From Gemmatimonadota bacterium (lineage in GTDB: Bacteria > Gemmatimonadota > Gemmatimonadetes > Gemmatimonadales > Gemmatimonadaceae): 64,000 nt of DNA. The first letter of the stretch is position 1, and every line of letters begins with the position of its first letter. The stretch covers positions 186,001 through 250,000 of the forward strand of contig JAPLKS010000018.1 of assembly GCA_026387915.1 (NCBI GenBank). Direction: 5' to 3'. A program made the translations under genes and the position numbers. Below the pieces are notes generated by a model. The model had not been told where the DNA came from, searched no databases, and worked only from the letters and a program-made list of their open reading frames with translations. This document shows, in pieces, positions 8,957 through 45,823 of this stretch.

Positions 8957-9125
8957 CCCTGAAACTAGCATCGTTCGGGGGGGGCTCAGCACCCCCCATC
9001 CCGCGGCGGTGTCGGCATACCCCTGTCAACGAAGCGCGGGAATCCCCACTATTGCATATGAAGGATTGGTGCCAAGCTACGGCGATCCGAACCAGAATGA
9101 CGGTTGCACCCTATTGGAGGTACTG

Positions 9126-10382
9126 ATGCCCGTGACGCTCCCGGTAGTTGATGGCGATACCCTCAAAGCGCTCCGCGCCAGTGATGAGGCTGCGCTCGAG
9201 AAACTATTCCGCGCCGACTACCCCGCGCTCGTTCTGGAAGCCACGGAGGCCCTAGGGGATGCTAGCTTCGCGCCTCGCCTCGCCGAGGACGTGATGCTTT
9301 CCGTGTGGGACAAGCGCGCCACGTTCGAAACTACGCAGGCGCTCGACGCCTACATTCACGACGCCGTGCACGCCGCGTCGATTCGCGAAAAGCGCCGCCG
9401 CGGCTCGCTGCACCGGCTCGAAGCACACGAAGACAAGCCGCACGCGGAGCGGAAAGCGCGCGCTGAAGTCAGCGTGGACGATGCCTGGGCGCACGTCGTC
9501 GCCGCTTTGCATCGGCCCGCGGTCAACGCCGCGGAATCCGATCGGCAAAAGGTGGCGCAGGCGCGCCACGGCGCCGCCTCGCACATCGGCGCCGTCGGCA
9601 AACCGCGCTCGCGCAAGGCGGCGTTTGGCGTCGTGTTGGTGTTGGCCGTGCTGGTGGTCATCATCTTCTTGGTGCTCGACAAAGTCGGCGCCGACGCTGC
9701 GGTGAATACGGCCGTCAATGGCTCGGAGGCCGTCACGCTCGCTATTCGCAACGGTCAGCGCGGCAAGACCACGCTCGAAGACGGGTCCACGGTGGCCATC
9801 GGCGCGGAAACCAAGCTCACCACGCCAAAGGACGCGAGCCCGAAATTCCGCGCCGCCAAGGTTGAAGGCACGGCGTCGTTCGCCGTCGTCAAAGCCGAAC
9901 GGCCCTTTGAAGTGCGCGTCGGCAAGATTGCCGTCCGGGTGACCGGCCTCGATCTCAACGATTTCGCCGTGCGTGCCTACAACAATGAACCACTGATCTT
10001 TGTGTCGGTGAAAACCGGCTCCGCGATGGTGAAGTTTGAGAAAGTGGAACGCACCTTGAACGCCGGTGAAGCGATTTCGGTGACCAAGGAAGGCGCGATG
10101 GCCACGCTCAAGCCGGAAGAAGTCGCGGATGCGTTCAGCTGGATTGATGGCAAGATCAGCTTCACCAACCAGCCGGTCAGCCGCATTGTGCCGGAAGTGC
10201 GCCGCTGGTACGACTACGTGATCGACGTCCGCGACAAGGATCTGCTCGACCGCCCCGTGACCGTCTCGGCCGAGCTCACCTCGGTCAAAGACATCATCTC
10301 GGCGCTCGAAAAAGGCGCGAACGCCAAGTTCGGCTACGACGGCCAAACGCCCATTCTGCGCGACGCGGCCAAGAAGAAGTAG
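9126..10382 (+). CDS. Fusion of sigma-70 region 2-like domain with transmembrane FecR/DUF4974-like sensor
   Basis: A 418-residue protein with an unusual order of domains. Residues ~12-92 look like region 2 of an ECF sigma factor: LKALRASDEAALEKLFRADY, then LAEDVMLSVWDKR and LDAYIHDAVHAASIREKRRR, matching the core-binding, -10-recognition and basic helices. No region 4 follows. Residues 166-184 are one hydrophobic helix (AFGVVLVLAVLVVIIFLVL). Residues ~200-310 form a FecR domain (TLEDGSTVAIGAETKL, FEVRVGKIAVRVTG) and ~335-410 a DUF4974/STN-like domain (FTNQPVSRIVPEVRRWYDY). The ATG at 9126 has GGAGG six bases upstream, and a strong intrinsic terminator follows the stop. I infer that an anti-sigma-type membrane sensor has acquired or kept a sigma-like cytoplasmic domain. 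No free sigma factor lies beside it. Confidence 0.8.
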   Translation: MPVTLPVVDGDTLKALRASDEAALEKLFRADYPALVLEATEALGDASFAPRLAEDVMLSVWDKRATFETTQALDAYIHDAVHAASIREKRRRGSLHRLEAHEDKPHAERKARAEVSVDDAWAHVVAALHRPAVNAAESDRQKVAQARHGAASHIGAVGKPRSRKAAFGVVLVLAVLVVIIFLVLDKVGADAAVNTAVNGSEAVTLAIRNGQRGKTTLEDGSTVAIGAETKLTTPKDASPKFRAAKVEGTASFAVVKAERPFEVRVGKIAVRVTGLDLNDFAVRAYNNEPLIFVSVKTGSAMVKFEKVERTLNAGEAISVTKEGAMATLKPEEVADAFSWIDGKISFTNQPVSRIVPEVRRWYDYVIDVRDKDLLDRPVTVSAELTSVKDIISALEKGANAKFGYDGQTPILRDAAKKK

Positions 10383-10401: not shown

Positions 10402-10441
10402 GATACGCGCCCCGCGAAACTCGCGGGGCGCGTATCTTTTT
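10402..10441 (+). terminator. Intrinsic terminator of the sigma/FecR fusion gene
   Basis: A perfect 16-bp stem (10402-10417 with 10421-10436, starting GATACGCGCCCC) with a 3-nt loop is followed directly by five T residues. It begins 19 nt after the stop of the fusion gene and ends four bases before the putative GTG of the SET gene. Confidence 0.9.
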
Positions 10442-10444
10442 CGG

Positions 10445-10888
10445 GTGCATCCTTTCGAGATCCGCGACTCGCCCATGCAGGGGCTCGGTGCCTTTGCCAC
10501 ACACCCCATTCCCGCTGGGGTGCGCCTTATTGAATACGCCGGCCAGCGGCTGACCCCCGCCGAAGCTGAGGCGCGCTACCCCGACGTGCTTGGGGAACGG
10601 CATCACACGTTCTTGTTTGCGATTGATGACGATGTGGTTATTGACGCGGCCTTCGACGGCAACGATGCGCGCTTCATCAATCATTCCTGCGACCCGAACT
10701 GCGACGCCGTCATCGACGACGGGCGCATTTGGATTGAGACGCTCCGCGACATCGCGCCGGGTGAAGAGCTGGCGTACGACTACGCCTACGTGCTCGACGA
10801 ACGGCATTCGCCGGCCGCCAAACGACGCTTCCCCTGCCACTGTGGTGCCGCGAGTTGTCGCGGCACCATTCTCGCCAAGAAACGCTAG
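10445..10888 (+). CDS. SET-domain protein-lysine N-methyltransferase
   Basis: A 147-residue single-domain SET protein. It shows the N-terminal SET strand FEIRDSPMQGLGAFATHPIP, the core motif RFINHSCDPNC (residues 76-86), GEELAYDYAY (catalytic Tyr region, 107-115) and a post-SET cysteine cluster CHCGAASCRG (C131, C133, C138) that in eukaryotic enzymes binds zinc with the core Cys. Length and motifs fit compact bacterial SET proteins. I infer an S-adenosylmethionine-dependent lysine methyltransferase; the substrate is unknown. The GTG at 10445 keeps the full SET N-terminus but lies only four bases after the terminator hairpin and has no clear ribosome-binding site. An internal ATG at 10475 would cut into the domain. 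It is convergent with the M19 dipeptidase six bases away. Confidence 0.9.
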   Translation: MHPFEIRDSPMQGLGAFATHPIPAGVRLIEYAGQRLTPAEAEARYPDVLGERHHTFLFAIDDDVVIDAAFDGNDARFINHSCDPNCDAVIDDGRIWIETLRDIAPGEELAYDYAYVLDERHSPAAKRRFPCHCGAASCRGTILAKKR

Positions 10889-44490: not shown

Positions 44491-45272
44491 TAGCTGCGCG
44501 TGGGCAACGTGGCGACGTCGCGCATGAGTTGCAGTTTGGAGTCGTAGGCACGAGAGAGGCGCTCGGTCAGAAACGCGCTGGCCGGATCCTGCGCCAGCGC
44601 CGCCTTGCTCTCGCGAATGGCGTTATCAATGACCTTCAAATTCTTTTCGAGAATGGTGATGGTCGCGGAGTCGAGTTCCGCGCGGCGCTGGTCCACCAAC
44701 GTGCGCAGTCCGGCAATCTCGCGGTCGTATGTTTCGTCGAGGCTCGGCTTGTGCGAGGCTTGCACGGCGGGGGTGGTGCTCCCCGCGCTACCGGCCGCCG
44801 GTGTACTGCCCGATTCGGCGGAGTTCACCGGCGCAGACCGATCGCTCGCCACGCGCCAGGTGATACCGGCCGTCGCCACAATCAACAGCGAGGCGGCCAC
44901 GGCCAAGCCGCGTGGTGACCACTCGCGGCGCGCCTTTTGGTGCGCCATCCGCCCCTGTGTGCCAGCCGGAGCGGAGCTCCCTTCGAGCTCCGCCTCAAAC
45001 GATGACGCACTTCCCACGACGGGCAATGCCACCACCTGAGCCGCAATGCGCTGTTCCACGCCGCTCCACAAATCGTGGCTTGGCTCGAGCAACGGCAAGT
45101 CGCCCGCCTGCTGCACAATCAACCGAAGGTCGGCCACCAACGCCGCGCATTCCGCACAGTCGAGTCGGTGCGCGTCGGCGGCCGCGCGCTGCTCGGCGGA
45201 GAGCGCCTCTTCTTCGAGATAGTCCGTCACGAGCGACTGGAATTCTTGGCAAGTCATGGCAGAGAGGGTCAT
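44490..45272 (-). CDS. Zinc-finger (zf-HC2) transmembrane anti-sigma factor
   Basis: A 260-residue protein. The N-terminal zinc-binding anti-sigma domain shows CQEFQSLVTDYLEEEALSAE and HRLDCAECAALVADL (the H-x3-C-x2-C ligands). After ~130 residues a single membrane helix (GLAVAASLLIVATAGITW) is followed by a periplasmic Ser/Thr/Ala-rich region and a coiled-coil-like helix (ELDSATITILEKNLKVIDNA). It is expected to bind and inhibit the ECF sigma factor encoded just upstream. The ATG at 45272 overlaps the sigma stop (ATGA). A start at 45257 (second ATG) is possible. Its own stop overlaps the first DUF4097 gene. Confidence 0.9.
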   Translation of the reverse strand: MTLSAMTCQEFQSLVTDYLEEEALSAEQRAAADAHRLDCAECAALVADLRLIVQQAGDLPLLEPSHDLWSGVEQRIAAQVVALPVVGSASSFEAELEGSSAPAGTQGRMAHQKARREWSPRGLAVAASLLIVATAGITWRVASDRSAPVNSAESGSTPAAGSAGSTTPAVQASHKPSLDETYDREIAGLRTLVDQRRAELDSATITILEKNLKVIDNAIRESKAALAQDPASAFLTERLSRAYDSKLQLMRDVATLPTRS

Positions 45273-45823
45273 TGGGTCAACTGTGCGCGTAACAGCATGC
45301 GGGCGCGGTGCAACTGCGCCTTGCAGCCCCCTGAGGTGACGCCGAGCATCTCGCCTATCTCCTCGTGGGTATAGCCCTGCACGTCGTGGAGCACGAACAC
45401 TTTCTTGGCACCTGGCGGGAGCGTGGCGATCGCCCGTTCGAGATCGATCGAGAGCCCCGGGACTTCGGTTGGCCGCACGTCGGCGTAGGCCAAGGAATCC
45501 ATTTCTTCGATACTGTCGTCGTGCTTGTCGCGGCGGCGGCGTTCCGTTTGCCGTTCGTTGAGCACCACGTTCACCGCGAGTCGGTGGAGCCAGGTGCCAA
45601 ACGCGCTTTCGCCGCGAAACTGCGTCAACTTTTCCCACGCCCGCACAAACACATCCTGCGTGAGCTCCTCGGCCCGGGCTTTGTCTCCCACCATTCGTGC
45701 GCAGAGCGAGTACACGCGGCTGACGTGCGTCCGGTAGAGCCGTTCGAAGGCTCGGCGGTCCCCGCGTGTAGCGAGGGCAACGTCATCTGGTGAATCGGAC
45801 TGGGCTACTGAGGGTTGGAGCAA
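45269..45823 (-). CDS. ECF-type RNA polymerase sigma factor
   Basis: A 184-residue ECF sigma factor. Region 2 covers ~20-95: GDRRAFERLYRTHVSRVYSL, DKARAEELTQDVFVRAWEK and FGTWLHRLAVNVVLNERQTE. Region 4 covers ~125-180: IATLPPGAKKVFVLHDVQGY, THEEIGEMLGVTSGGCKAQL and HRARMLLRAQL. The start appears to be a TTG at 45823 since no ATG or GTG precedes the conserved region in frame; annotation could differ by a few codons. It is the first gene of an operon with its anti-sigma factor and DUF4097 proteins, all with one- to four-base overlaps. An autoregulated promoter is likely in 45824-46055 but I did not identify it. Confidence 0.93.
   Translation of the reverse strand: MLQPSVAQSDSPDDVALATRGDRRAFERLYRTHVSRVYSLCARMVGDKARAEELTQDVFVRAWEKLTQFRGESAFGTWLHRLAVNVVLNERQTERRRRDKHDDSIEEMDSLAYADVRPTEVPGLSIDLERAIATLPPGAKKVFVLHDVQGYTHEEIGEMLGVTSGGCKAQLHRARMLLRAQLTQ

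Follow-up and report, generated by a model that had tools for sequence, protein, structure and literature searches.

The 418-residue protein encoded at positions 9126 to 10382 of the window, by which we mean the whole stretch of 64,000 nucleotides analysed, is probably a single-gene transmembrane FecR-type sensor, the cytoplasmic arm of which is a sigma region 2 repurposed as an interaction module, here called pseudo-sigma2. The sigma2 piece is conserved family-wide without the residues that grip RNA polymerase and the promoter, and is therefore probably reused for a non-transcriptional job. If this reading is true, a sigma domain has become a non-transcriptional signalling module through fusion to its own regulator, and one bacterial family possesses a conserved sensor that is missed by ECF surveys demanding both sigma2 and sigma4. 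Our searches of the open-access literature returned no description of this sigma2-FecR protein family. The gene and the parts of its product are as follows.

9116..9120, + strand: Shine-Dalgarno sequence GGAGG, 5 nt 5' of the ATG (sequence; orthologue comparison)
9126..10382, + strand: the sigma2-TM-FecR-FecR_C protein, 418 aa (ATG start, open reading frame, Pfam and profile matches, full-length orthologues)
9153..9416, + strand: sigma region 2-like ('pseudo-sigma2') domain, residues ~10-97 (profiles, fold, lost functional residues)
9417..9470, + strand: His-rich linker, residues 98-115 (His composition in orthologues)
9471..9512, + strand: FecR pre-membrane segment with the motif VDxAWxxVxxxL, residues 116-129 (split-FecR motif, hhalign)
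9564..9587, + strand: juxtamembrane motif R/K-H-x-A-A-x-H-[VILM], residues 147-154 (orthologue conservation)
9618..9683, + strand: single transmembrane (TM) helix, residues ~165-186, with a basic flank on its N-side (N-in) (sequence; orthologues)
9738..9974, + strand: FecR domain, residues 205-283 (Pfam PF04773, E=4.9e-7, above cut-off)
10152..10346, + strand: FecR_C (DUF4974) domain, residues 343-407 (Pfam PF16344, E=1e-6, above cut-off)
10402..10436, + strand: strong intrinsic terminator, a 16-bp stem followed by TTTTT, directly 3' of the fusion gene and ending the unit

The stop codon of the open reading frame ends at position 10382, and nearly all of the orthologues have a Shine-Dalgarno sequence and start codon at the same place as the window gene. 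The domain order given in the preliminary description, a sigma2 without sigma4 followed by one TM helix, FecR and DUF4974, was confirmed by Pfam, by profiles and by the predicted fold. As in the FecR family, a periplasmic FecR domain follows the single TM helix, and PF04773 was matched in 32 of the 32 orthologues. The position of the helix is conserved among the orthologues, and a low-confidence structural model places a helix at residues 166-184. In profile searches, the periplasmic part resembles the solved FecR-type regulators 4m0n, 4m0h and 6ovk, matching 4m0n, a putative anti-sigma, over residues 203-411 (E=1.9e-35) and 6ovk with E=6.6e-13. The full-length AlphaFold model (pLDDT 57, three-sequence alignment) is too poor for this part of the protein.

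The resemblance of the N-terminus to sigma region 2, which the preliminary description had noted, was recovered by profile searches at a level well above chance, and the absence of sigma2 similarity that would have refuted that description was not observed. Residues 28-93 matched Sigma70_r2 with E=0.015, under the Pfam cut-off, and residues 1-162 matched the NCBIfam model TIGR02985 with E=3e-8, under the curated cut-off of that model; TIGR02985 also matched 23 of the 32 orthologue N-termini. When a profile of these 32 N-termini was compared with the PDB, 12 sequences were matched, all of them sigma factors, with 9n9q_C as the best (E=5.8e-7). A profile of 22 ECF sigma factors recovered the fusions with E-values from 2e-19 to 0.007, and hhalign aligned the fusion sigma2 with ECF sigma region 2 at E=4e-21. 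The predicted structure is also in agreement with this resemblance: the AlphaFold model of residues 1-137 (pLDDT 82), built on a three-sequence alignment, superposes on region 2 of E. coli sigmaE with 2.0 Å over 90 residues (VIA Z 10.5), and Foldseek matched this predicted model to sigmaE region 2 with a target TM of 0.85. The Foldseek E-values are weak by themselves (0.06), and the case for the fold therefore rests on the all-sigma top of the list together with the sequence evidence; PhyR was not among the fold matches listed, which carries no weight in either direction. The profile, profile-profile and predicted-structure evidence agree in indicating that the N-terminal domain is derived from region 2 of an ECF sigma, the fold of this region being present in the predicted model.

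An ECF sigma factor has both sigma2 and sigma4 domains, but Pfam detected region 4 in none of the 32 orthologues; complete sigmas, as a positive control, scored sigma4 at E-values of 2e-14 to 2e-17. Within the linker, hhalign found no match to region 4 (E=0.66 against sigma4, as compared to E=0.0017 against the FecR N-region). Matches of sigma profiles running past residue 100 had made a linker-borne region 4 a candidate, which was rejected because the FecR pre-TM motif accounts for them better. In the split FecRs, the TM helix is preceded by a VDxAWxxVxxRL segment, and the same motif occurs in the fusion at residues 117-128. In a profile comparison, the fusion aligned to FecR from fusion residue 111, corresponding to FecR residue 52, onwards (E 4e-43). 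Given the shared motif and the start of this alignment, the fusion keeps sigma2 plus FecR from the pre-membrane segment on, without sigma4 and without the anti-sigma N-terminal segment. This cytoplasmic anti-sigma segment of FecR (DUF4880-like) is absent from the fusion and sigma2 stands in its place, with the proviso that even the tested split FecRs gave weak DUF4880 matches or none. The comparisons support a joining, in an ancestor of the family, of an ECF sigma region 2 to the FecR pre-membrane segment; one deletion inside a fecI-fecR pair would yield such a protein.

To describe the functional residues, we compared alignment columns between the 22 ECF sigmas, mostly FecI-like proteins from relatives, and 32 fusions. 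Two of the sigmas come from the window's genome; one of these, encoded at 45269-45823 (-) of the window, is an intact ECF sigma factor with regions 2 and 4, and lies neither beside a FecR nor adjoining the fusion. The acidic and Gln residues with which region 2.2 contacts the beta-prime clamp are replaced in the fusions at positions 50, 51, 54 and 55. Position 50 is E in 21 of the 22 sigmas and P in 20 of the 32 fusions, while position 51, E or D in every sigma, is R or K in 25 fusions. The Q54 common to all 22 sigmas is E in 24/32 fusions and Q in 1/32, and position 55 (D/E in 22/22 sigmas) is mixed. The Asn residues of regions 2.3/2.4 are lost as well, position 83 (N in 21/22 sigmas) having become H, E, A or G, and position 87 (N in 20/22) being R in 26/32 fusions. 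On the other hand, the fold positions G19, D20, A23, F28, R29, W61, R64 and L77 are kept. The net charge of residues 12-86 changes from +1.8 in the sigmas to -4.4 in the fusions, that of helix 2.2 from -1.1 to +0.6 and that of helix 2.3-2.4 from +4.8 to +1.4; these shifts run in the direction expected to hinder binding to beta-prime and DNA.

Holoenzyme formation requires the negative DAED motif to contact the beta-prime clamp, and the ECF43 sigmas, which have no DAED, are inactive until phosphorylated (PMC8103513, PMC8999054). We considered an ECF43-like rescue by phosphorylation and rejected it, as the DAED positions of the fusions are mostly P and R/K, with no Ser or Thr in the great majority. 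From the replacements, which would abolish RNA polymerase and DNA binding here, we infer that this domain does not function as a sigma factor. The preliminary description had suggested that the tethered module could bind core RNA polymerase directly or be released by proteolysis. The former appears to be contradicted, because the region 2.2 residues are lost and charge-reversed in nearly all of the orthologues, and an active sigma is unlikely to be released, given this loss together with the absence of sigma4; either form of sigma activity is unlikely.

With a protein query, full-length orthologues were found among 99 relatives across many genera of one family. The preliminary description had proposed a survey of the fusion across the phylum, and of the 298 genomes sampled in our profile search, 58 had a full-length orthologue, all of these belonging to a single family, probably the Gemmatimonadaceae; the genomes are MAGs and may be incomplete. 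No full-length fusion was found outside that family in this 298-genome sample, where weak distant fusions could be missed, and no plasmid record covered 80% of the query. In the trees, the sigma2 domains of the fusions group together on a long stem, separate from the split sigmas (100/100), and the periplasmic parts of the fusions and of sigma2-less forms form one clade apart from the split FecRs (100/100). Judging from these trees, the fusion has a single origin.

Five orthologues in the window's genus have no sigma2 (genomes G001, G003, G004, G005 and G008; loci L056, L057, L058, L059 and L060). They start at their own Shine-Dalgarno sequence and ATG just before the TM helix, and several are syntenic with the window. 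These forms are nested inside the fusion clade, the fusions alone forming one group in 0 of 200 bootstrap trees, as expected for secondary loss in one lineage of the genus. Since this lineage dispenses with sigma2, the periplasmic part must be of use without it. In a subclade of the same genus (L041, L042, L048 and L070), the linker is shorter and the HRFE segment is missing, which is possibly an intermediate state. In another genome, G007, two gene copies are present, L001 and L003 (contigs C160 and C185): one shows 98% identity along its full length, and the other, which lies at the end of a contig, shows 100% identity across residues 1-158; they probably reflect a strain mixture in the MAG.

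The sigma2 domain gave dN/dS values of 0.19-0.36 (NG86) in five informative close pairs with unsaturated dS, comparable to those of the FecR domain, and the fusions share a strongly conserved and partly new residue set, W61, R64, R87, E88, R91 and R92. In view of this purifying selection, the domain is selectively maintained and not simply decaying. The preliminary description had also offered a degenerate remnant, which stands as regards the sigma function and fails as regards the domain itself. An inert remnant, in which sigma2 would be a relic left by the gene fusion and the periplasmic FecR part alone would matter, gains from the sigma2-less orthologues and from the loss of the functional sigma residues. 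However, retention of sigma2 in 58 genomes of many genera at these dN/dS values, together with the partly new set of conserved residues, makes this explanation unlikely.

The comparisons show that the sigma2 fold was kept and the beta-prime clamp and -10 element residues were replaced, while purifying selection continued. In the repurposed-module reading, which we prefer, pseudo-sigma2 would no longer direct transcription, and we infer the further step from a domain that is not a sigma to a sigma mimic with a partner, that is, a protein-docking module. The periplasmic FecR/FecR_C part would set the availability of this module via the single TM helix, by conformation or by intramembrane cleavage, and the most likely kind of partner would be a cytoplasmic protein that normally recognises sigma region 2, for example an anti-sigma factor that would be titrated in a PhyR-like manner. 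We know of no sigma2-only mimic that would be an exact precedent. Two further points against the repurposed module are the lineage that manages without sigma2 and the fact that the known FecR-FecI contacts are made by sigma4 (PMC9249621), a domain that the fusion does not have. A more far-reaching version of the proposal is offered tentatively, as a possibility below even odds: a one-protein transmembrane sigma-mimic switch, in which the FecR sensor would control a tethered pseudo-sigma2. This module would titrate an anti-sigma, or some other protein that binds sigma2, and would not touch RNA polymerase or DNA itself; it would be a membrane-bound PhyR counterpart that arose when part of a fecI-fecR pair was deleted.

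The genomic context was searched for partners. No gene order around the fusion is conserved beyond the genus, on which ground a conserved operon or partner gene was rejected, and in the loci fetched no sigma-like open reading frame was near the fusion except one ~5 kb away in L065. Directly downstream of the window gene, after the terminator, a SET-domain protein is encoded at 10445-10888 (+) (Pfam SET E=1.4e-25); the SET domain is uncommon in bacteria. The window's genome has one separate ECF sigma/FecR-like pair (L073:5096-6874, -), the FecR of which is without a detectable FecR_C domain. Most of the genomes with the fusion that were checked encode no other FecR protein; thus, the fusion can do without a paralogous pair, and a role as decoy for a second FecR was rejected. 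The decoy suggested in the preliminary description may still be of another kind, though in general not one for a paralogous FecR.

The genome also contains an RseP-like M50 protease, as would suit a sigma/anti-sigma fusion of the IutY type, in which a periplasmic signal would lead to Prc/RseP cleavage and the freed cytoplasmic piece would act as a sigma with core RNA polymerase. The order of parts, sigma-TM-FecR, is likewise that of IutY (PMC5411451, PMC9249621). However, IutY has sigma2 (8-84) and sigma4 (100-164) (PMC9249621), so that a complete sigma is joined to TM-FecR, whereas sigma4 is absent from 32/32 fusions and their core-binding and -10 residues are replaced. Furthermore, no PF07660 match, and hence no STN-domain TonB transducer of FecA-type cell-surface signalling, was found in the window's genome, so that a FecA-like input is unlikely. 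Overall, the IutY-type explanation is quite improbable.

The linker raises the alternative of intracellular metal (or haem or proton) sensing, in which the His-rich linker and the juxtamembrane H-x4-H would bind the ligand and gate FecR, with sigma2 as a structural cap. His makes up 10.6% of residues 98-160 of the orthologues, as compared to 0.8% of the periplasmic part; H148 is present in 27/32 and H153 in 31/32 orthologues, and the cluster is retained as an HHAHI-like sequence in the sigma2-less forms. The juxtamembrane motif is a possible ligand or metal site, and together with the conserved E54 it could serve another activity, such as metal binding or an atypical RNA polymerase contact. 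Nevertheless, the family has almost no Cys, the His spacing is not that of a classic site, no neighbour genes of any kind are conserved, and His-rich linkers can be compositional, leaving this explanation, too, with little probability. An RsoA-like split sigma, in which the sigma2 module and a separate sigma4 protein would form a two-part sigma at the membrane as B. subtilis SigO-RsoA has sigma4 and sigma2 on separate proteins (PMC8103513), is the most implausible, since the fusion no longer has the residues with which a region 2 subunit should touch beta-prime and the -10 element, and no sigma-like gene is conserved beside it.

Among known systems, IutY of Pseudomonas putida (ECF243) is the nearest in architecture (PMC5411451, PMC9249621), with an N-terminal sigma-derived domain, one TM helix and a periplasmic FecR-like region in one chain. 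IutY keeps both sigma domains, becomes an active sigma after Prc/RseP cleavage and has the receptor IutA, whereas the fusion is without sigma4 and the functional sigma2 residues, and no STN receptor was found in its genome. The FecI/FecR pairs, the source of both halves, share the periplasmic FecR and FecR_C domains and the pre-TM VDxAW with the fusion, which is one gene instead of two, without the FecR anti-sigma segment and FecI sigma4. The EcfP/ECF43 sigmas also miss DAED in region 2.2, but in EcfP a phosphorylated Thr restores the charge of a working sigma, where the fusion has mostly P and R/K. The two-subunit SigO-RsoA likewise carries sigma2 without sigma4 on one chain; RsoA, however, is a working sigma subunit, whereas the fusion has lost the RNA polymerase and DNA residues and is membrane-bound. 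Finally, PhyR of the Alphaproteobacteria has a correct ECF fold with degenerate core and promoter regions and titrates an anti-sigma (PMC8103513). The predicted model and the alignment give the fusion the same combination of a sigma-like fold and degenerate contact residues, and neither protein would be a transcription factor. PhyR is a response regulator with a sigma-like domain that titrates NepR, whereas the Pfam scan found no receiver domain in the window protein, a membrane FecR sensor that has region 2 alone. PhyR is the nearest logical precedent for pseudo-sigma2 (PMC8103513).
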